From Sphingopyxis sp. 2PD (GTDB lineage: Bacteria > Pseudomonadota > Alphaproteobacteria > Sphingomonadales > Sphingomonadaceae), in assembly GCF_005503695.1 (NCBI RefSeq), contig NZ_SCMU01000004.1:1-64000 (forward strand): a stretch of 64,000 nucleotides of DNA, in the 5' to 3' direction. The notes beneath the pieces are model-generated. The model ran no database searches, was not told where the DNA came from, and saw nothing but the letters and a program-made list of their open reading frames with translations. This document shows, one piece after another, positions 887 through 12,029 of the stretch. Positions within the stretch are counted from its first letter, which is position 1. Each line of letters opens with the position of its first letter. A program made the translations under genes and the position numbers.

Positions 887-1123
887 ATGAGCACCGCCCT
901 CACCGACCAGATTTACGGCCTGATCGCCCCCTTCAACAAAAAGGGGGTCGAACTGACCGATGCGACGACCTTTGCCGGCGACCTTGAATGGGACAGCCTG
1001 ACGGTGATGGATTTCGTCGCCGAGGTCGAGGACACGTTCGACATCATCATCAGCATGAACATGCAGGCGGAGATCGAAACCGTGGGGCAATTGGTCGCCG
1101 CGGTCGAGAAATTGCAGGGATAG
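887..1123 (+). CDS. Acyl carrier protein for sphingolipid synthesis
   Basis: A 78-residue acyl carrier protein. The phosphopantetheine site is Ser37 in EWDSLTVMDFV, followed by the usual acidic helix (EVEDTFDI). It lies about 110 bp upstream of the serine palmitoyltransferase gene on the same strand. That is the arrangement known for sphingolipid-producing Alphaproteobacteria, where a dedicated ACP supplies the acyl chain. It is therefore more likely the sphingolipid ACP than the housekeeping fatty acid ACP, which normally sits in a fab cluster. The start is an ATG directly after the TTATGGGACGCACCAC leader. Confidence 0.85.
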   Translation: MSTALTDQIYGLIAPFNKKGVELTDATTFAGDLEWDSLTVMDFVAEVEDTFDIIISMNMQAEIETVGQLVAAVEKLQG

Positions 1124-1233: not shown

Positions 1234-2436
1234 ATGACCGACCTCTTTTCGAAATTCGATCCGCTGATCCAGCAGCGCGAAACGCTGCTCGCGACCGGGG
1301 TCACCGATCCCTATAATCTGGTGATGGAAAAGGTGATCTCGCCGACCGTCGCGATCTGCAACGGGCGCGAGACGATCCTGCTTGGCACCTATAATTATAT
1401 GGGCATGACCTTCGACGAGGATGTCATCGCCGCAGGCAAGGATGCGCTCGACAAATTCGGCAGCGGCACCACCGGCAGCCGCGTGCTCAACGGCACCTAT
1501 CAGGGGCACAAGGAGTGCGAAGAGGCGCTGAAGGAATTTTACGCCATGGATCATGCCATGGTGTTTTCAACCGGTTATCAGGCGAACCTCGGGATCATTT
1601 CGACGATCGCGGGCAAGGGCGACTATGTCATCCTCGACATCGACAGCCATGCGTCGATCTATGACGGGTGCAAGATGGGCGACGCCGAAATCGTCGCCTT
1701 CCGCCACAATGACGTCGACGCGCTAGAGAAAAGACTGAAGCGCCTGCCCGCAGACGCGGGCAAGCTCGTCGTGCTCGAAGGCGTCTATTCGATGCTCGGC
1801 GACGTCGCGCCACTGAAGGAGATGATCCGCGTTTCGAAGGAAGCCGGCGCGATGGTGCTGGTCGACGAGGCCCATTCGATGGGCTTTATCGGCGAGAACG
1901 GCCGCGGGGTTGCCGAGGCGCAGGGCGTTTTGGACGATGTCGATTTCGTCATCGGCACGTTCAGCAAGAGCGTCGGCACCGTCGGCGGCTTTTGTGTGTC
2001 GAACCATCCGAAGTTCGAGATCATGCGGCTGGTCTGTCGTCCCTATGTGTTCACCGCGTCGCTGCCGCCCAGCGTCGTCGCGACCGCGGCGACCAGCATC
2101 CGCAAGCTGATGCACGGGTCGAACAAGCGCGCGCATCTGTGGGAAAATTCCAAGGTGCTGCACAAGGGGCTGCGCGATCTGGGGTTCCAGCTCGGCACCG
2201 ACGAGCCGCAGTCGGCGATCATCGCGGTGATCATGCCCGACCTCGAGCAAGGCGCGATGATGTGGGAGGCGCTGCTGGAGGAAGGGCTGTACGTCAACCT
2301 GGCGCGCCCGCCCGCGACCCCCGCGGGCATGACCCTGCTGCGCTGTTCGCTCTGCGCCGAGCACAGCATCGAGCAGGTCGGCGAAATCCTCGGCCGTTTC
2401 GAACGCGCGGGCAAGCGCGTCGGGATTATCGGCTGA
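1234..2436 (+). CDS. spt: Serine palmitoyltransferase
   Basis: A 400-residue PLP-dependent alpha-oxoamine synthase. It condenses serine with a palmitoyl thioester to 3-ketodihydrosphingosine, the first step of sphingolipid synthesis, in the cytoplasm. The Schiff-base lysine is K245 in GTFSKSVGTVGG. H139 (DSHASIYDG) stacks on PLP, and D211 and H214 lie in LVDEAHSMG. These correspond to H159, D231, H234 and K265 of the soluble Sphingomonas paucimobilis enzyme with a constant offset of 20, so this protein has a shorter N-terminus. There is no membrane segment, as expected for the bacterial homodimer. The adjacent acp is the probable acyl donor partner. Confidence 0.95.
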   Translation: MTDLFSKFDPLIQQRETLLATGVTDPYNLVMEKVISPTVAICNGRETILLGTYNYMGMTFDEDVIAAGKDALDKFGSGTTGSRVLNGTYQGHKECEEALKEFYAMDHAMVFSTGYQANLGIISTIAGKGDYVILDIDSHASIYDGCKMGDAEIVAFRHNDVDALEKRLKRLPADAGKLVVLEGVYSMLGDVAPLKEMIRVSKEAGAMVLVDEAHSMGFIGENGRGVAEAQGVLDDVDFVIGTFSKSVGTVGGFCVSNHPKFEIMRLVCRPYVFTASLPPSVVATAATSIRKLMHGSNKRAHLWENSKVLHKGLRDLGFQLGTDEPQSAIIAVIMPDLEQGAMMWEALLEEGLYVNLARPPATPAGMTLLRCSLCAEHSIEQVGEILGRFERAGKRVGIIG

Positions 2437-2549: not shown

Positions 2550-4520
2550 GTGTTCGAGCGGGATAGCGATACCGAAACCGAGACGCGGCGCGAGCGATTA
2601 CGCTTTTGGCTGACGATCGGCATGGCGACGATGCTGACCGGCATCGTGGGCGCGCTTGTCATGCTGCTCGCGCGCGCCAGCGACAATTACGACCAGTCGC
2701 TCGGCTGGCAGACGCAAAGCCTGGAAGTCATTTCGCAGACGCGCTCGCTCGACGCCTCGCTCGCGCGCGCCGAGGCGGCGCTCGGGCGCTTTGCGGTGGG
2801 ACTGCAAAAAGAGGACGGCCGCGTTTACGAACAGCAATGGGGGCTGGCGCGGCAATATCTGACGCGGCTCGACCGCAGCGTCCGCGACAACGCGACCCAG
2901 TCGAAGCTGGTCGATGACCTGACGCGCGAAATGGACAGCCGCGGACGCCAGCTTGGCGACGCGGCGCTGAGCGCCAATTACAGCCAGACCGTCGCCGCGA
3001 TTTCGAAATATCATGCCGCGGGGCACGACGCCGGGCTCAGCCGCATCGACGATCTGCTCAACCAGATTATTGCCAATGAACGCGCGCTGCTGCGCGAACG
3101 CATTCGCACCGCCGCCGCCGATCGCGCCAGCCTGAACCAGGCGATGTTGCTGTTTGCCCTGCTCGGCGCGGCGATCGCCGCCGTGGCGATCGGCACGACA
3201 TTCTCGTTCGTCCGCGCCGAGGCCGAGCGCCGGGTCGCGCGGCGCGAGCAGGTGGCGGAAAGCGAACGCGCCATGCAGCTGGAGGAGGCCGTCGAAGCGC
3301 GCACCGCCGAGCTGGAACAGGCCAATATCGCGCTGCGCAGCGAGATGAGCGAGCGCGCCGCGGCCGAAGCCCAGCTTCGCCAGGCGCAAAAGATGGAAGC
3401 CGTCGGCCAGCTGACCGGCGGCATCGCGCATGATTTCAACAATATGCTGGCGGTTGTTGTCGGCGGACTGGAACTGGCGCAGCGCTGGCTGCCCGGCACC
3501 CCGGAAAAGGCCGAACGCCACCTTGCCAACGCGCTCGACGGCGCTAATCGCGCCGCCGACCTGACGCGGCGGCTGCTGACCTTTGCCCGATCCGAACCTG
3601 CACGCCCCGAAACGACGCCGATCGACGCCTGCATTACGGGGTTTGCCGAGCTGATCGAACGGACGATCGGCGACAGGATCGCGCTGACGCTCGACCTCAA
3701 TGCAGACCATCTCGCCTGCTGGCTCGACCGGCAGCAGTTCGAAAATGCGCTGCTCAACCTGGCGGTCAATGCGCGCGACGCGATGGACGGCCATGGCGCG
3801 CTGACCATCCGCACCCTCGACGATGGCGACGGCAAGGCGCTGGCGGTGCAGGTGATCGACACCGGTTGCGGCATGTCGCCCGAGGTATTGGAACGCGTGT
3901 TCGATCCCTTCTACACCACCAAGCCCGCGGGTCAGGGGACCGGACTGGGCATGAGCCAGGTCTTTGCCTTTTGCCGCCAGTCGGGCGGCGAGGTCCAGAT
4001 TTCCTCGACCGAAGGCGAAGGTACGAGCGTCGCGATGCTGTTGCCGGTCGCCAAGCCGGAGGATGTCGCAGCGGCGGCCAGCGACGGCGATGGCGATCCC
4101 GCCGACTGCGCACCCGCCGAAGCGCTGAACATCCTGGTGATCGAGGACGACCAGCGCGTCCTCGCGGCGACGGTCGATGCGGTCGAGGAACTGGGCCATA
4201 GCGCGGTGGCGTGCGGCAATCCGCTGGAGGCCGAGCAGCTCGTCGAAGGACGGCTGGCCGACGGCGGCCGGTTTGACCTGGTGCTATCCGATGTGCTGAT
4301 GCCCGAACTGACCGGCCCCGAACTGGTCGCGCAGCTCAAACAGCGCTGGCCCGAACTGTCGGTGCTGTTCGTCACCGGCTATGCGGGCGACGCCGGCGAG
4401 GCCGAAAGTTTCGGCGACCATGACGTGCTCCGCAAACCCTTCACCCTCAACGCGCTCGATCAGGCGATCCGCCGGTGCGGCGAAGCCCGGGCGGGCATGG
4501 GACAGCGGCTGGCGAGCTGA
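2550..4520 (+). CDS. CHASE3 hybrid sensor histidine kinase with receiver
   Basis: A 656-residue protein starting at GTG. TM1 is about residues 20-42, and a CHASE3-like extracytoplasmic helical domain runs to about 195. TM2 is about 197-220, followed by a coiled coil rich in Ala and Glu. The HisKA H-box has H294 in GGIAHDFNNML, then a HATPase domain with N and G boxes (LNLAVNARDAMDGHG, DTGCGMS, GQGTGLGMS). The C-terminal receiver has phospho-acceptor D581 in LSDVLMPE and a KPF lysine motif. It follows spt by 113 bp on the same strand. Its ligand is unknown. The stand-alone Hpt protein at 42.0-42.4 kb could accept phosphate from its receiver, which is speculative. Confidence 0.9.
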   Translation: MFERDSDTETETRRERLRFWLTIGMATMLTGIVGALVMLLARASDNYDQSLGWQTQSLEVISQTRSLDASLARAEAALGRFAVGLQKEDGRVYEQQWGLARQYLTRLDRSVRDNATQSKLVDDLTREMDSRGRQLGDAALSANYSQTVAAISKYHAAGHDAGLSRIDDLLNQIIANERALLRERIRTAAADRASLNQAMLLFALLGAAIAAVAIGTTFSFVRAEAERRVARREQVAESERAMQLEEAVEARTAELEQANIALRSEMSERAAAEAQLRQAQKMEAVGQLTGGIAHDFNNMLAVVVGGLELAQRWLPGTPEKAERHLANALDGANRAADLTRRLLTFARSEPARPETTPIDACITGFAELIERTIGDRIALTLDLNADHLACWLDRQQFENALLNLAVNARDAMDGHGALTIRTLDDGDGKALAVQVIDTGCGMSPEVLERVFDPFYTTKPAGQGTGLGMSQVFAFCRQSGGEVQISSTEGEGTSVAMLLPVAKPEDVAAAASDGDGDPADCAPAEALNILVIEDDQRVLAATVDAVEELGHSAVACGNPLEAEQLVEGRLADGGRFDLVLSDVLMPELTGPELVAQLKQRWPELSVLFVTGYAGDAGEAESFGDHDVLRKPFTLNALDQAIRRCGEARAGMGQRLAS

Positions 4521-4566: not shown

Positions 4567-5427
4567 TTACCGGATCGCGCCGCCCTTGATCAGCCGCGGT
4601 ACCAGCGTGACCGCGGCGATCAGCGGCCAGCGGCGCTGCCACGGCTTGATTTCGATCTTGGTCCCCGCATGGCGATTGATCTTCCACGCCAGATAATCGA
4701 TCCCACCGGCATAGGTCAGGCTGGCCTTGGCCAGCCGCGCGATGCTGAGCGCCTTGCCCTCGATCCGCCGCCGCGCCCATGCACCACTGCGCGCGGCCGC
4801 CGGGATCGCGGCGATCGCGGGGGCGCTGAAACGCTGGTAGCGGTCGGCGTCGGCATCGACCACCGACTGCGCGCGGCCCGCCCGTTCGGCGCGCAGCTCG
4901 ACCGAATAGGTGAGCGCAAAGGCCCGCCGCCACCAGTCGAGCGGCGCCTCGCCATCGACCTTGCCCGCTGCCGCCAGCAAGGTCGGCGCGGCGCGCGCGA
5001 CGGCGGCGATGGCGCGGTCGCGCGCCGTATCGTCGACCGCCCATACCAGCCGCGACGGCTGCGCAAAGCGCGCCCACACCGACACATTGCGTGTTTCCGG
5101 CCCGTTCAGGCGGTGAAAGTCGCTTTCCGACAGCACCGCATATTTCGCGATCAGCCCGCGGTGCGCGAACGGAAAGACATTGGGCGGGATCAGCCGATTG
5201 GCGGCGGCCATCCACCGCTTGGGATACGCATCGCCATAATCGGACACGATCAGGTAGAAATCGAGCATCAGCCCGTCGAGTTCGCTCATCCTGAGGCAGC
5301 TGCCGTAAAACAGCACAGCGCGCGCGCTACCCGGATATTCGGCGGCGATCGCCTGTGCCATGGCGGCGACGCGCGGGTCGACCGGAGTCGACAGTTCGGC
5401 GCGGACCAGGTCGATCAGGTCGGACAT
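4567..5427 (-). CDS. TAM41-like (Mmp37 family) nucleotidyltransferase
   Basis: A 286-residue protein that I align by eye with the mitochondrial CDP-diacylglycerol synthase TAM41. Shared blocks, in order, are FYGSCLRMSELDGLMLDF (G42-S43 and D56, the nucleotidyltransferase pocket), LIAKYAVLS near residue 95, an ALTYSVELRAE segment near residue 190, and a C-terminal SIARLAKASLTYAGG resembling the TAM41 SIRQSTKG segment. TAM41 makes CDP-DAG from phosphatidic acid and CTP. The gene starts 10 bp after the lipid kinase stop, so the two are probably translated together: the kinase would make a phospholipid and this enzyme would add CMP. Whether the substrate is phosphatidate or a sphingolipid phosphate cannot be told from sequence. 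Confidence 0.6.
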   Translation of the reverse strand: MSDLIDLVRAELSTPVDPRVAAMAQAIAAEYPGSARAVLFYGSCLRMSELDGLMLDFYLIVSDYGDAYPKRWMAAANRLIPPNVFPFAHRGLIAKYAVLSESDFHRLNGPETRNVSVWARFAQPSRLVWAVDDTARDRAIAAVARAAPTLLAAAGKVDGEAPLDWWRRAFALTYSVELRAERAGRAQSVVDADADRYQRFSAPAIAAIPAAARSGAWARRRIEGKALSIARLAKASLTYAGGIDYLAWKINRHAGTKIEIKPWQRRWPLIAAVTLVPRLIKGGAIR

Positions 5428-5437
5428 GCGCGAACGC

Positions 5438-6412
5438 TCAGGCGGCGAGGCGCAGGAACGGCACGGGCTGGGTCGAAGTCAGGATGATCGGCATGCCGTT
5501 CTTCGCCTGAAAAATCTCGCCATCGAGAATCACGTTCGACCGCTCGCCCTCGATCCGGATCTCGTCGCCCTGCTGGAAGTGGACGCCATCGAGCTGGCGC
5601 TGCCCCAGCGTCCCGCGCCAGGTGGCGCCCAGCATGCGGAACAGCGCGCCCAGGCCGCGCTCGACCGCGAGCAATTTCATCTGTCCGCTCTGCCCGGCGC
5701 TGTCGGTGGTGCGGATGCTGAGCAGCAGCTTTTCCAGCGTCGTCACGATCAGCAGCGAAAACTTGCCCTTGAATTCGCCCTGGCGGATCAGCGACACCGT
5801 CATCGCCTCGGGCTTGGGGGGCAGGCGCCCGCCACCGAGGCCGAACATCATCGCAAACAGCCCCAGAATCGCGGCCAGGAAATGCGAAATGCCGTTCGGC
5901 AGCCCGAGCGGATAGATGCGATTGCGGCAATAGAGCATCACATCGGCGAGATAGGCGCCGCCTAGGAACATGCCGAGCACCGGGCGCGTTTCGCCGCCGC
6001 TGTCGAGCGAGATCAGCTGGCGCTGAATCACATGATCCTCCAGCTGCCCCGAATTGACGAGTTCGATCACCCGCTGCAACGCCTTGATCGGATCGCCCGC
6101 GGCGCCAAGGTCGAGCGCGATCAGGTTGGTCTTGCCGTTCGGCAGCACCGCGACCGGCGGCGGCGAACCGCCGAAATGGCCGCCCGAATAAAGCTCGGTC
6201 AACGCGGCCTGCACCGTGCCGTCGCCGCCGTTGATGACGACAACGCGCGGCCCGACCATCGCGATGGTGCGGATCGCCTCGCCGATCTGGTCGACGTCCT
6301 CGACCTCATAATGAAAGATGTCGGGATGCGCCGCGCAATATTCGCGAACCCGCGGCAACAGGGCGCGGTTGCCGGTCGAACGCGGGTTGGAAAGGAGCGC
6401 GACGCTGGCCAT
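5438..6412 (-). CDS. Diacylglycerol/ceramide kinase-family lipid kinase
   Basis: A 324-residue DAGK-catalytic/LCB5-type kinase. The nucleotide loop is INGGDGTVQAAL with GGDGT at 62-66. The second conserved loop reads VLPNGKTN, a variant of the usual PxGTxN. The C-terminal beta-sandwich carries VILDGEIFQAKNG, equivalent to the DGE/DGE-like motif of the family. The family phosphorylates diacylglycerol, sphingoid bases or ceramide with ATP. It sits between a DUF2141 gene (7 bp upstream) and a TAM41-like gene (10 bp downstream), and about 3 kb from the serine palmitoyltransferase gene. That context makes a ceramide or sphingoid substrate attractive, but diacylglycerol remains possible. Confidence 0.75.
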   Translation of the reverse strand: MASVALLSNPRSTGNRALLPRVREYCAAHPDIFHYEVEDVDQIGEAIRTIAMVGPRVVVINGGDGTVQAALTELYSGGHFGGSPPPVAVLPNGKTNLIALDLGAAGDPIKALQRVIELVNSGQLEDHVIQRQLISLDSGGETRPVLGMFLGGAYLADVMLYCRNRIYPLGLPNGISHFLAAILGLFAMMFGLGGGRLPPKPEAMTVSLIRQGEFKGKFSLLIVTTLEKLLLSIRTTDSAGQSGQMKLLAVERGLGALFRMLGATWRGTLGQRQLDGVHFQQGDEIRIEGERSNVILDGEIFQAKNGMPIILTSTQPVPFLRLAA

Positions 6413-6419
6413 CTGGTCC

Positions 6420-6926
6420 CTATTCGACCGGGTCGAACGACAAGCCGTTGACGTAGTTCAGTACGATCGGCACGCGCTTGGTGGCGCCGCCGACGGCAAA
6501 GCTGACCGTCGCCAGTTTCGGCTTCCGCTTGAAGATGAAATCGCTGACCTTCATGTCGGGGTTGCCCGACAGGCCGGCGCCGTCGCTGCGGTCCGATTTG
6601 CCGTTGCCGTTCATGTCGTGGCGAACCGACACGACATAATTGCCCGGCTGCTTGACCGGGACGCACACCGACATCGTCCCGGTGCGCGAGACGGGAACGT
6701 CGACGCGCTCGATCCACTTGCGCTTTTCCAGATAGCTGCTGTTCGCGCTGTAGATCTGGACCCGCACCGTGCCGGTGCGCGCCTTGAATCCGCGCACATC
6801 GACCTGCACAGCGGTCGCATTGCTGTTGCACAGGGCGGCTGCCGGACCCAGCGCAGCACCCTGCGCCGCGACGGGCGCAATCAGCGCTCCGGCGGCGAGC
6901 ATACCGGCGAGAATAATTTTCGACAT
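6420..6926 (-). CDS. DUF2141 secreted protein
   Basis: A 168-residue protein with a signal peptide (MSKIILAGMLAAGALIAPVAAQ). The body carries a DUF2141 signature, including VRVQIY and a calcium-binding-like HDMNGNGKSDRSDGAGLSGNP loop rich in Asp and Asn. It is predicted to be periplasmic or outer-membrane associated. A GGAGG ribosome site lies at 6937-6941. It is the first gene of a leftward operon with the lipid kinase and the TAM41-like gene. DUF2141 proteins have no settled function; the context suggests a role in envelope lipid handling. Confidence 0.7.
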   Translation of the reverse strand: MSKIILAGMLAAGALIAPVAAQGAALGPAAALCNSNATAVQVDVRGFKARTGTVRVQIYSANSSYLEKRKWIERVDVPVSRTGTMSVCVPVKQPGNYVVSVRHDMNGNGKSDRSDGAGLSGNPDMKVSDFIFKRKPKLATVSFAVGGATKRVPIVLNYVNGLSFDPVE

Positions 6927-7060
6927 GACCTCAATTCCTCCAGAGGTTATAGCCACGCCGACAAACGCATGATGCACCTGCCGACACGGGCCCCTGTCGC
7001 CCTTGAATCGGCATATCGGAAACAACTGCGGCCAAATCATGGTGATGGGGCGACGAAAGA

Positions 7061-8281
7061 TTGAATAAGCTGCCTGCCATCGACCGCTACATCGCGCGGC
7101 TCATCTTTTTTCCCATGCTGGGTACGCTGGTCCTGTCGGCGATGCTGCTCGTGCTCGAAAAGATGCTGCGGCTGTTCGATTTTGTCGCCACCGAGGGTGG
7201 GCCGGTCAGCATCGTGTGGCGGATGCTCGCCAATCTCATCCCCGAATATCTTTCGCTGGGCATTCCGATCGGCCTGATGCTGGGGATTCTTCTGGCTTTC
7301 CGCAAGCTTGCAACGACCAGCGAGCTCGATGTGCTGAAGGGCGTCGGGATGAGCTTCGGGCGGCTGATGCGCATTCCTTTCGCCTACGCACTGGCGTTGG
7401 CCGCGCTCAATCTGGCGATCGTCGGCTTCATCCAGCCCGTCGCCCGCTATGCCTATGAAGGCTTGCAGTTCGAACTGCGCTCGGGCGCGCTGGGGGCGTC
7501 GATCAAGGTCGGCGAATTCACCAAGCTGGGCGACCGCATGACGCTGCGCATCGAAGAAAGCTATGACGACGGCAAGTCGCTGCGCGGCATTTTCGTGCGC
7601 GGCGACAATCGCGATGGCCAGCGCGTGTCGGCGACCGCCGCGCGCGGGCAGTTCCTGGCCACCGACGACCCCAACACGATCATCCTGCGATTGTCGCAGG
7701 GCGTGCTGATCCACGAATCGCCCAAATTTGCGGTGCCGCGCGTGCTGACCTTCGACAATCACGACCTGCCGATACCATTGCCCAAGATCGAGGCGTTCCG
7801 CCTGCGCGGCGGCGCCGATCGCGAAATGACGATCCCCGAGCTGTTCGTCGCGGGCAAGGACGAGAGCCAGTCGGAACAGACGCGGCTCGAATCGCGCGCC
7901 AATTTCCATTTCCGCATCGTCGAAGTGCTGTCGATGTTCCTGATCCCGCTGATCGCGGTGGCGCTGGCGATCCCGCCCAAACGATCGACTTCCTCGCTCG
8001 GCGTCTTCCTGTCGATCGTGCTCTTGGTGACCCAGCATAAGATCAACCAATATGCCGAGGACATGGGCGCGCGCGGCGTCGTCGATCCGGTGATTGCGCT
8101 GTGGGTTCCCTTTCTGCTGTTCGCGGCGCTGGCGGTCTGGATGTATTATGTCGTCGCGCATGTGCCGGGCGGCCAGCCGATCGGCGCGCTCGAACGCGTG
8201 GCGGCGAAGTCGGCGCAAAAGATTCGCGGGCTGTTGACGATGTTCCAGCGCAAACCGCGGGGCGTGGAAAGCCTGACCTGA
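7061..8281 (+). CDS. lptF: LptF permease (LPS export ABC transporter family)
   Basis: A 406-residue YjgP/YjgQ-family permease with three N-terminal membrane segments, a large soluble jellyroll region (about 135-300) and three C-terminal segments. With LptG and the LptB ATPase it extracts lipid from the inner membrane and passes it to LptC/LptA. The start appears to be TTG at 7061, because an upstream ATG near 7040 runs into a stop. It is divergent from the DUF2141 operon and one base from lptG. Its place beside sphingolipid genes is notable because sphingomonads generally carry glycosphingolipid in place of LPS. Confidence 0.85.
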   Translation: MNKLPAIDRYIARLIFFPMLGTLVLSAMLLVLEKMLRLFDFVATEGGPVSIVWRMLANLIPEYLSLGIPIGLMLGILLAFRKLATTSELDVLKGVGMSFGRLMRIPFAYALALAALNLAIVGFIQPVARYAYEGLQFELRSGALGASIKVGEFTKLGDRMTLRIEESYDDGKSLRGIFVRGDNRDGQRVSATAARGQFLATDDPNTIILRLSQGVLIHESPKFAVPRVLTFDNHDLPIPLPKIEAFRLRGGADREMTIPELFVAGKDESQSEQTRLESRANFHFRIVEVLSMFLIPLIAVALAIPPKRSTSSLGVFLSIVLLVTQHKINQYAEDMGARGVVDPVIALWVPFLLFAALAVWMYYVVAHVPGGQPIGALERVAAKSAQKIRGLLTMFQRKPRGVESLT

Positions 8282-8282
8282 T

Positions 8283-9383
8283 ATGCACCAGCTTCATTTT
8301 TTCCCGTCGCGCACGATGGCGCTCTATGTCGGGCGGCTGTTCCTGATCCGCTCCTTCTCGATCCTGTTCGCGTTGGTGCTGATCCTGCAAACGCTCGACC
8401 TGCTCGGCGAAAGCGGCAAGATCCTGGCGGTCGCGGGCAACAGCGACGCCGATGTCTGGCGCTATGTCGGGATGCGGCTGCCGCAGATCATCGAAACCTT
8501 CCTGCCCTTTTCGGTGCTGCTTGGCACGATATTGACGATGGTGACGCTGAACCAGAACAGCGAGGTTATCGCGATGAAGGCGTCGGGGATGTCGGCGCAC
8601 CAGGTCCTTGCGCCGCTGTTCCTTGCCGCGCTGCTGGTCGCCGGGATCAGCTTTGCCTTCAACGAACGCATCGTCACCCGCTCGACCGCGGCGCTCAGCG
8701 CCTGGCAGAAGGTCGAGTATAAGCGGGTGCCCCCCGACAATGGCGTGCGCAGCAACATCTGGGTGCGCGACGGCAACAATCTGATCAACGCCGAAACGGT
8801 CGAAACCGGCGGACCAGCGATCGTGCTGCGCGGCGTCACCATCTATGAACGCACCGGCGGCGTGCTGTCGTCGATGCTGAAGGCCGACAGCGCGCGCGCG
8901 GTGGCCGGGGGCGGTTGGGAAATGACCAACGCGCGCCGCTTCATCCGCCGGTCGGGGACGCTGGAACCGCTGGGAACGATCGTCGCGGCAAAGTCGGTGC
9001 GCCCCGACCAGTTCACACTGGCGCAGGTCGACGGCGACGAGCTTCCCTTCCTGAAGCTGAAGGCAGCGATCGACGATCTGGAGGCCGCGGGCCGCCCGGT
9101 CGGGGCGCTGAAAGGCGTGTTGTGGCACAAGATTTCGGGACCGCTGTCGGCGATCCTGATGCCGCTGCTGGGCGCCGTCGCGGCGTTCGGCCTCGCGCGG
9201 TCGGGCAAGCTATTCATTCGCGCAATCGTCGGGATGGGGCTGGGGTTCGCCTATTTCGTCGCCGACAATTTCGCCCTCGCGATGGGGGATTTGGGCGCCT
9301 ACTCGCCGTTTCTGGCGGCGTGGGGGCCGTTTATCCTGTTCGCGCTGATCGGCGAGATGATTTTGATCCGGACCGAGGAATAG
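8283..9383 (+). CDS. lptG: LptG permease (LPS export ABC transporter family)
   Basis: A 366-residue YjgP/YjgQ-family partner of LptF with the same layout: N-terminal membrane helices, a periplasmic jellyroll (about 125-270) and three C-terminal helices. The coupling-helix region reads NQNSEVIAMKASGMS, which is typical of LptG and contacts LptB. The ATG follows the lptF stop by one base, so the two are co-translated. The substrate in this organism may be a glycosphingolipid rather than lipid A, inferred from lineage knowledge and gene context. Confidence 0.85.
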   Translation: MHQLHFFPSRTMALYVGRLFLIRSFSILFALVLILQTLDLLGESGKILAVAGNSDADVWRYVGMRLPQIIETFLPFSVLLGTILTMVTLNQNSEVIAMKASGMSAHQVLAPLFLAALLVAGISFAFNERIVTRSTAALSAWQKVEYKRVPPDNGVRSNIWVRDGNNLINAETVETGGPAIVLRGVTIYERTGGVLSSMLKADSARAVAGGGWEMTNARRFIRRSGTLEPLGTIVAAKSVRPDQFTLAQVDGDELPFLKLKAAIDDLEAAGRPVGALKGVLWHKISGPLSAILMPLLGAVAAFGLARSGKLFIRAIVGMGLGFAYFVADNFALAMGDLGAYSPFLAAWGPFILFALIGEMILIRTEE

Positions 9384-9633: not shown

Positions 9634-10740
9634 TCAGACCGCACCCCCCCGCGCCGAAACCGCCACCAGATTCGCCACCAGCTTCGGCAGGCTGTCGTAA
9701 TTCGCACCATGATATTGCGAATCGGCGGGCAGCACGTCCTTCAACCGGCGATGCGCCTCGGCGAGTGCATGATAGGGCACGCCCGGCAGCAGATGGTGCA
9801 GCGCATGATAGCGCAGCCCCACCGGCGCCCACAGCTCGGGCAGCAGGCCCGGCGGCGGCACGTTGACGCTGTCAAGGAACTGGCCGGTCACGGTCAGCAC
9901 TTCGCCGTCATTTTCCCAAAGGTGCGCCACCAAGGTGCGGATCTGGTTGAGCACCAGCGTCGCCGCCGCAATCGCGCCAAAGATCAACAGCGCGCGCAGC
10001 GGCACCCAGCCGAAGACGCCCGCGGCGATCAGCAGGCTCGACCACGCCCAGGCGCCGCCCTCCTGCCACGCCCACATGCGGCGAAACTCGCCGTCGGGCG
10101 CCTTACGGCGGAACAGCGGGTTGATGATCATCCCCGAATAGCGCTCGACGACGACGCGGCGCAGCGGCGGGATCAGGAACGACAGCGGGGTCAGCACCGC
10201 ATAGCGGAACAAGAGCGCCAGCGGCGCGAACGCCGCGGCGACCACGAACAGCGGCACCGTCCACGGCTTCATCAGCGCGAGCGGCAGATATTCGGGATCG
10301 TCGACCGTGCCATATTTGGTGCGATTGTGGTGCAGGCTGTGGATGCCTTCATACATGTAGGACGGGATCAGCAGCGGCACGCCGACGAGCAGGTTCCACG
10401 CGAAACGGAAGCCCGGCAGCGCGTTTTTGCGGATATGCGTCAGTTCGTGGATGAAACTGCCGGCGCGATAGAGCGCGAGGATCGCGATCAGCGCGGCGGC
10501 AAGCGACCAGGCGAGCGTCGGCGCCAAGATGGCGCCCGCGACACCCGCGTAACCGATGACGGTCGATGCCAGAAAATCGGTCCAATAGATGCGCGCTGAC
10601 GGCGTCACGAGGTCGCGCGTCAGCTCCGACGCGGCGCGGATCATCGCCATGTCGTCGGCGATCGCCGATTTGGGGATCCGGGCCGCCGCCTTGACCAGCG
10701 GTGTGTCGACCCGATCGGCAGAGGGGTTGATCGTCGTCAT
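9634..10740 (-). CDS. Membrane fatty acid desaturase family protein
   Basis: A 368-residue integral membrane di-iron desaturase or hydroxylase. The three histidine boxes are intact: HELTH at 98-102, HSLHH at 134-138 and HALHH at 312-316. Hydrophobic segments lie around 58-92, 118-130 and 165-190 and again near 230-265. The family introduces double bonds or hydroxyls into acyl chains or sphingoid bases at the inner membrane. The neighbouring lipid genes make a sphingolipid or acyl-chain substrate plausible. It is divergent from the GNAT-like gene at 10860. Confidence 0.8.
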   Translation of the reverse strand: MTTINPSADRVDTPLVKAAARIPKSAIADDMAMIRAASELTRDLVTPSARIYWTDFLASTVIGYAGVAGAILAPTLAWSLAAALIAILALYRAGSFIHELTHIRKNALPGFRFAWNLLVGVPLLIPSYMYEGIHSLHHNRTKYGTVDDPEYLPLALMKPWTVPLFVVAAAFAPLALLFRYAVLTPLSFLIPPLRRVVVERYSGMIINPLFRRKAPDGEFRRMWAWQEGGAWAWSSLLIAAGVFGWVPLRALLIFGAIAAATLVLNQIRTLVAHLWENDGEVLTVTGQFLDSVNVPPPGLLPELWAPVGLRYHALHHLLPGVPYHALAEAHRRLKDVLPADSQYHGANYDSLPKLVANLVAVSARGGAV

Positions 10741-10859
10741 AACGCTCGCTCTTCACCATGATTTCGTGGCAGCAAAATGGCCAAATGCGGGTCGCCAGCG
10801 CCGCGGCGATGCCCTAATGCGTCATCCGACATATAGGGTTGGCATTTCAGGAAACCAGT

Positions 10860-12029
10860 ATGAGCGGACATTCGGACGGACCGATCACCATCCACCCGGT
10901 CAAAGACAAGAACGACCGGCGCGAATTCGTCGAGCTGGCCTTTCGGCTCAATCGCGGCGATCCGGCGTGGGTGCCGCCGCTGAAGGGCGAGGTGTATAAC
11001 CTGCTGACTCCCGGCAAAAATCCGTGGTTCGAACATGGCAAGGCGCAATTGTTCCTGGCGCGGCGCAACGGCCGCACCGTCGGCCGGATTTCGGCGCATA
11101 TCGACGAACTGGCACTCGCGCAGCCCGCCGAACAGGGGATGGGACCGGGGACGGGCAACTGGGGGCTGCTCGAAGCCGAGGATGCGGAAACGACCCGCGC
11201 GCTGCTTGTCGCCGCCGAGGATTGGCTGCGCAATCAGGGGATGCACCGCGCGCTAGGCCCGCTGTCGATTTCGATCTGGGACGAACCGGGGCTGTTGATC
11301 GAGGGGTTCGACAACCGCCCGACGGTGATGATGGGGCACAACAGCCCACTCTATCGCGGCTGGATCGAGGACAGCGGTTATCGCCCGATCAAGCAGCTGC
11401 TGAACTACGACGTCCACGTCGCCGACGGTTTCCCGCCGCTGGTCAATCGCATCGTCGCCGCGGGCGAAAAGAACGCGCGCATTCGGATCCGCAAGATCGA
11501 CAAAAGCCGCTTCGATGCCGAAGCCAAGCTGATCATGGGGCTGCTCAACGATGCCTGGTCGGACAATTGGGGGTTCGTCCCGCTGACCGACAGCGAGATC
11601 GCCTTTGTCGGTAAAAAGCTGAAAACTTTGGTGTTCGAGGATCTGATCCGCGTCGCCGAAGTCGACGGCGAGCCCGTCGCTTTCATGATCGTCTTGCCGA
11701 ACATCAACGAGTTGCTGATCGACATGGACGGATCGCTGCTCCCCTTCAACTGGGCAAGGCTGCTGTGGTGGCTGCGCAAGCCGAAAAGCCGCACGCTGCG
11801 CGTACCGCTGATGGGGGTCGCCAAAAAGCTGCAGAACAGCCGGATGGCGAGCACCCTCGCCTTCATGATGATCGAATTCATCCGCCGCGACGCGGTGCGC
11901 GACTATGGCACCGAGCGCGGCGACATCGGCTGGGTGCTCGACGACAATCAGGGCATGAACGCGGTCGCCGAGGCGATCGATGCCAAGATCAACCGGGTGT
12001 ACCAGATTTACGACAAGCCTTTGGGCTGA
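10860..12029 (+). CDS. GNAT-fold acyltransferase, ceramide synthase candidate
   Basis: A 389-residue soluble protein. The N-terminal half reads like a GNAT domain (LARRNGRTVGRISAHIDEL, then a LEAEDAETTRALLVAAEDWL helix). A family-specific block follows: RALGPLSISIWDEPGLLIEGF and PTVMMGHN. A second GNAT-like half has RVAEVDGEPVAFMIVLPNI. The family is widespread in Alphaproteobacteria and often has only a generic annotation. From memory it resembles the GNAT-type protein reported as bacterial ceramide synthase in Caulobacter; I cannot confirm this without alignment. Its presence in the same 12 kb as spt and acp supports an N-acylation role. I chose the ATG at 10860 over an upstream TTG at 10839. 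Confidence 0.55.
   Translation: MSGHSDGPITIHPVKDKNDRREFVELAFRLNRGDPAWVPPLKGEVYNLLTPGKNPWFEHGKAQLFLARRNGRTVGRISAHIDELALAQPAEQGMGPGTGNWGLLEAEDAETTRALLVAAEDWLRNQGMHRALGPLSISIWDEPGLLIEGFDNRPTVMMGHNSPLYRGWIEDSGYRPIKQLLNYDVHVADGFPPLVNRIVAAGEKNARIRIRKIDKSRFDAEAKLIMGLLNDAWSDNWGFVPLTDSEIAFVGKKLKTLVFEDLIRVAEVDGEPVAFMIVLPNINELLIDMDGSLLPFNWARLLWWLRKPKSRTLRVPLMGVAKKLQNSRMASTLAFMMIEFIRRDAVRDYGTERGDIGWVLDDNQGMNAVAEAIDAKINRVYQIYDKPLG

Follow-up and report, generated by a model that had tools for sequence, protein, structure and literature searches.

Two adjacent genes of Sphingopyxis sp. 2PD are very probably the cpgB and cpgC genes of the pathway by which bacteria make ceramide phosphoglycerate (CPG), coding for a predicted ceramide kinase and a putative nucleotidyltransferase that is distantly related to Tam41 in its predicted fold. 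The pair is real and well conserved, and it is a member of a pair already known from Caulobacter; what is new is the pattern of co-occurrence, together with the evidence from fold and residues for a kinship with Tam41. The genes lie in the window (the 64,000-nucleotide stretch of contig NZ_SCMU01000004.1 that was analyzed), 10 bp apart and near spt as the preliminary description had placed them, in a sphingolipid cluster with the following features.

887..1123 (+): acyl carrier protein; NCBIfam acyl carrier protein models match at a best E of 5.4e-14, under their cut-offs; adjoins spt in relatives
1234..2436 (+): spt, serine palmitoyltransferase; passes the NCBIfam equivalog NF047603 (809.6 bits, cut-off 670)
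2550-4520: hybrid histidine kinase, flanked by spt and cpgC
4567..5427 (-): cpgC-like gene, 286 aa; predicted CTP:ceramide-1-phosphate cytidylyltransferase and Tam41-like nucleotidyltransferase, from the frame, an AlphaFold model, and conserved residues
5428..5437 (-): intergenic gap from the cpgB stop to the cpgC start, 10 bp, read from the sequence
5438..6412 (-): cpgB-like gene, 324 aa; predicted ceramide kinase of the DAGK family (PF00781, GGDG), at most loci the gene next upstream of cpgC
6420..7040 (-): DUF2141 gene upstream of cpgB (PF09912, E 5e-19); a likelier start is near 6926, before a signal-peptide-like stretch
7061..8281 (+): LptF-family permease (PF03739, E 9.4e-65), LptF2-like by position
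8283..9383 (+): LptG-family permease (PF03739, E 6.3e-78), LptG2-like by position
9634..10740 (-): fatty acid desaturase/hydroxylase-family gene (PF00487, E 4.7e-29)
10839..12029 (+): acyltransferase-like gene at the ceramide synthase place; weak GNAT match (E 0.17), conserved in the clusters of relatives

The acyltransferase-like gene has no match in an NCBIfam search, and by its position we take it to be bCerS/CC_1154-like. The hybrid histidine kinase is kept between spt and cpgC in several Sphingomonadaceae and might be a regulator of the cluster, and the DUF2141 gene is again next to cpgB in several sphingomonad loci. A role of the LptF-family permease in sphingolipid transport is possible by analogy with PMC11324152, and the LptG-family permease is assigned a putative LptG2-like role by its position.

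The kinase belongs to the DAGK/ceramide kinase family, as first proposed. It matches DAGK_cat (PF00781) at E 2e-13 with 50.5 bits (Pfam cut-off 23.6), contains GGDG, and with two cysteines in all is without the CxxxCxxC of eukaryotic CERK; it is thus of the CpgB type, for which PMC10331486 gives a DAGK catalytic domain and GGDG without CxxxCxxC as the marks of a bacterial ceramide kinase. The Caulobacter crescentus protein CC_1160 (CpgB, ccna_01218) is a ceramide kinase by assay (PMC10331486), and deletion of the neighboring CC_1161 (CpgC, ccna_01219) abolishes both CPG and CPG2, which are restored by complementation (PMC11324152). Orthologs of CC_1160 and CC_1161 are reported in S. wittichii and Z. 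mobilis, and the Sphingopyxis CpgC is most likely orthologous to CC_1161, judging from gene context and a BLASTP statement in the same paper (PMC11324152). Its nearest named genome record is that of Sphingopyxis microcysteis, at 99% over the protein.

The pair is more than a chance arrangement, because cpgC has a dN/dS of 0.12-0.16 against four congeners and a cpgB match lies upstream of it across most loci. A cpgB-profile match is directly upstream of cpgC and on the same strand in 50/50 loci of relatives (drawn from the 56 relative genomes with a CpgC match), 68/80 named loci, 21/22 phylum loci, and 14/16 class loci, some genomes sitting in two of these sets (e.g., G218). The loci with no adjacent upstream cpgB are 11 from Sphingobium, L097 (at a contig edge), L179, L234, and L236; the 12 misses among the named loci are the 11 Sphingobium loci and one contig edge, and all 11 Sphingobium genomes carry cpgB elsewhere, with 62-64% identity. 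At the Sphingobium loci L111, L116, L125, L127, and L131, cpgC has kept its neighbors (the histidine kinase, spt, and acp genes), with cpgB located elsewhere in the genome. Clustering of open reading frames in these neighborhoods is blurred by the shadow frames of GC-rich DNA.

CpgC homologs are present in 56 of 60 relatives, in 27 of the 398 phylum genomes searched, and in 21 of 190 genomes of the class (Alphaproteobacteria). CpgB homologs (E <= 0.001) were sought in a chosen set of 63 genomes, of which 39 have CpgC and 24, taken from listed non-matching genomes rather than at random, lack it; they are present in 39/39 and 8/24, respectively. A second search is positive in 32/32 CpgC genomes, a set that partly overlaps with the 39, and all 21 CpgC genomes of the class sample have a CpgB homolog. 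Five of the eight CpgB matches in CpgC-less genomes lie inside a sphingolipid cluster, one of them (G498) as a match in two pieces, and CpgA is found in 13 of the 190 class genomes, all 13 within the 21 that have CpgC. CpgB can thus exist without CpgC, while every CpgC genome searched for CpgB has it, as would be expected of a kinase that acts before CpgC, and the nesting of CpgA within CpgC within CpgB fits the order kinase, CpgC, CpgA.

Some sphingolipid clusters with cpgB-like genes lack cpgC (L202, L203, L204, L205, and L206), and the final phosphosphingolipid may differ in them. Islands of sphingolipid and CPG-type genes are also carried on plasmids, including Diaphorobacter pDCB2 (L264, NZ_CP065408.1) and Pseudomonas pPNP1 (L262, NZ_CP073662.1); 17 plasmid records code for a CpgC relative, and two of these, including pDCB2, are typed as conjugative.

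The second gene had been described as a TAM41-like CTP enzyme, and this stands for the predicted fold though not for the sequence profile. AlphaFold models of CpgC have pLDDT values of 88.0 (from 23 sequences) and 93.7 (from 51 sequences), and in a PDB fold search the first five ranks for both models are Tam41 chains (7ecd, 6ig4, and 6ig2; TM 0.47-0.53). The best-scoring model aligns with 7ecd, a Firmicutes Tam41 with CTP-Mg, at E 2.2e-7 over 274 columns (TM 0.51/0.53, rmsd 5.6 A, 15% identity), and the predicted structure has the nucleotidyltransferase domain and the C-terminal domain of the Tam41 fold. The next fold is 3c18 at TM 0.30, followed by aminoglycoside nucleotidyltransferases. A TM of about 0.5 with an rmsd of 5.6 A and 15% identity implies a distant kinship, and the fold therefore does not fix the substrate.

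The CpgC protein of the window matches no model of Pfam or NCBIfam at E <= 1; the lack of an Mmp37 profile match, named at the outset as an outcome that would refute the Tam41 idea, thus holds for this protein. Among the 51 homologs selected for alignment, the Tam41/Mmp37 family profile PF09139 (cut-off 24) matches three, of which L234 (28.8 bits) exceeds the cut-off and L052 (23.1) and L173 (21.8) fall below it; NCBIfam gives stray weak matches to these 51 sequences (best E 0.0039), with aminoglycoside nucleotidyltransferases among them at E 0.05-0.07. Searches of PDB sequences with CpgC profiles or proteins did not find Tam41. With Tam41 chains as the top folds but profile matches in 3 of 51 homologs and no Tam41 in the PDB sequence searches, the modeled CpgC is a distant relative of Tam41 by fold and not a member of its family by profile. 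A true Tam41 in relatives was considered and rejected: of the 190 class genomes, 1 has a PF09139 match at E <= 0.001, and of the 398 phylum genomes, 31 have one at E <= 10, with every match below the cut-off. The quick first look of that search undercounts, however, and passed over the CpgC of G182 (L234), which is above the cut-off in a direct scan. The two genome hits below E 1e-3 are both CpgC genes (G183 and G337).

The residues singled out at the outset are conserved (G42 in 51/51 homologs, S43 in 50/51, D56 in 51/51), and the alignment contains 17 invariant positions, G42, D56, and K95 among them; D56 is the predicted catalytic residue. In ordinary nucleotidyltransferases the first acid is followed by another two residues on, but the corresponding position in CpgC (residue 58) holds Y, H, C, or F in 51/51 homologs and is never acidic. 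Tam41 itself is reported to retain one acid out of three (PMC11646218, 2024). For comparison with the basic amphipathic C-terminal membrane helix of Tam41, the C-terminus of the window protein is basic, with a net charge of +12 in the last 70 residues, but its last helix (residues 268-285) has a modest hydrophobic moment of 0.33.

Together these features suggest a route in which the CpgB-like kinase would convert ceramide to ceramide-1-phosphate (C1P), a step assayed in Caulobacter, and CpgC as a Tam41-type nucleotidyltransferase would transfer CMP from CTP to C1P, giving CDP-ceramide and pyrophosphate. A further transferase would then exchange CMP for glycerate in a CDP-alcohol-type transfer to give CPG, which CpgD- and CpgA-like enzymes could extend to CPG2, as partly shown in Caulobacter. 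From the model and the gene context, CpgC may well make CDP-ceramide from C1P and CTP. The proposal of a CDP-activated sphingolipid holds in part, since a sphingolipid cluster does contain a lipid kinase gene next to one for a Tam41-like nucleotidyltransferase, but the idea is not new: CC_1161 was noted in 2024 to have a CDP-DAG-synthase-type InterPro domain and an NDP-activated ceramide was suggested (PMC11324152). The mechanism of CpgC is termed unidentified in a 2025 paper and a 2026 preprint (PMC12275187 and PMC13228409), and the literature searched, which covers few subscription papers, yielded no enzyme assay of CpgC and no use of the term "CDP-ceramide."

A distinctly less probable reading is that CpgC is itself the CPG synthase and uses its nucleotidyltransferase-type site to link C1P with glycerate, either in a direct reaction or with a nucleotide-activated form of glycerate as donor, with no release of CDP-ceramide. 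Published models draw CpgC as a one-step conversion of C1P to CPG (PMC12275187 and PMC13228409), and no separate CPG synthase was found in the literature searched or among the candidates examined in this genome. However, the nearest fold, Tam41, produces a CDP-lipid (PMC7018664), and direct attachment is described as energetically little favored (PMC11324152). Moreover, Caulobacter CpgD makes CDP-glycerate yet is dispensable for CPG (PMC12275187), and since CPG is intact after loss of CpgD, its CDP-glycerate is not the donor in the first step.

It is improbable that CpgC instead takes phosphatidate as its substrate, like Tam41, and is a second CDP-diacylglycerol synthase. The fold match is to a CDP-DAG synthase and the CpgB of Caulobacter can phosphorylate DAG as well in vitro (PMC10331486), but deletion of cpgB in Caulobacter leaves phosphatidate levels unchanged (PMC10331486) and loss of CC_1161 removes CPG (PMC11324152). 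Furthermore, cpgC sits in sphingolipid clusters with cpgB, and the genome already has a normal cdsA, whose presence elsewhere had been raised as a point to check, as one PF01148 match (151 bits) on another contig. A non-catalytic CpgC that keeps the fold, for example as a scaffold or a presenter of C1P to another enzyme, is very unlikely; it would fit the single conserved acid of the nucleotidyltransferase part, but not the invariant positions given above, and the same one-acid pattern occurs in active Tam41 (PMC11646218).

Further candidate genes of the pathway lie outside the window (1-64 kb): a CpgA-/CpgD-like gene group is present at 84-91 kb of the same contig, about 80 kb from the pair.

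84-91 kb region: CpgA-like CDP-alcohol transferase (PF01066)
L165:2664-3425 (84-91 kb region): CpgD-like nucleotidyltransferase (PF00483)
84-91 kb region: CofC-like nucleotidyltransferase (TIGR03552, E 2e-5, under its cut-off)
L165:2248-2676 (86.2-86.7 kb): HIT-family gene, overlapping the end of cpgA
84-91 kb region: second lipid kinase
84-91 kb region: metallophosphoesterase-like gene
84-91 kb region: TagF-like gene (weak match, PF04464, E 0.035)

Two candidates for the glycerate-adding enzyme (CPG synthase) in this genome, CpgA and one orphan CDP-alcohol transferase (L136:1345-2067), were examined and neither was retained. The orphan does not track with CpgC, matching at E < 1e-30 in 3/39 genomes with CpgC and 2/24 without, with two more weak matches, both in CpgC genomes. 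CpgA is present at E < 1e-50 in 14/39 CpgC genomes and in 0/24 others (best 1.0e-17), and it is dispensable for CPG in Caulobacter (PMC11324152). Because glycerate resembles serine, a phosphatidylserine-synthase-like enzyme could be guessed at as the glycerate transferase.

The HIT-family gene recurs in CpgA clusters, in 7 of 14 cpgA loci of at least 10 kb (with pDCB2 entered a single time; the profile was built from three of the seven), and in none of the examined loci without cpgA; further copies are at L264:31231-31674 and L266:7852-8295. By gene order it may correspond to CC_1157, which is regarded as probably unrelated in PMC11324152. Some CpgA genomes have a second CpgA-like CDP-alcohol transferase (L167:14124-15335 and L264:27752-28960), and a further CpgA-like match below E 1e-30 is present in 5 of the 13 CpgA class genomes; this second transferase perhaps serves a longer or different headgroup.

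In Caulobacter, CPG lipids aid survival when LPS is absent. Should CpgC produce CDP-ceramide, these bacteria would add headgroups to their sphingolipids by the logic of glycerophospholipids, through a Tam41-type enzyme. The preliminary description also raised an alphaproteobacterial origin of the mitochondrial enzyme. A far-reaching reading, of very low probability, is that CpgC is a ceramide-specific branch of the Tam41 superfamily making CDP-ceramide and that mitochondrial Tam41 derives from this alphaproteobacterial sphingolipid toolbox; were it so, the mitochondrial cardiolipin pathway would have adopted a headgroup-activation enzyme of bacterial sphingolipid synthesis.

Among known systems, the closest is the CpgB/CpgC pair of Caulobacter. 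In both, genes for a kinase and a nucleotidyltransferase-like protein accompany spt and LptF/LptG in one sphingolipid cluster; the window differs in having spt and cpgC separated by a hybrid histidine kinase gene, and the Sphingopyxis cpgA/cpgD-like genes are about 80 kb away. CpgD, the CTP:phosphoglycerate cytidylyltransferase, is a CTP-using nucleotidyltransferase of the same pathway, but it is of another family (PF00483 type) and has its own counterpart in the Sphingopyxis genome. CdsA (PF01148) uses CTP to turn a lipid phosphate into a CDP-lipid, as predicted for CpgC, but is an unrelated integral membrane family (PMC7018664) and is separately encoded in Sphingopyxis. Tam41/Mmp37 (PF09139), the mitochondrial and Firmicutes CDP-DAG synthases, shares with CpgC the predicted overall fold across the aligned columns, the YGS motif, a nucleotidyltransferase part in which one Asp is conserved, and, by net charge, a basic C-terminal region, whereas CpgC diverges from 7ecd in sequence, has no match to the Pfam profile in the window protein, and is encoded in a gene context of ceramide rather than cardiolipin.
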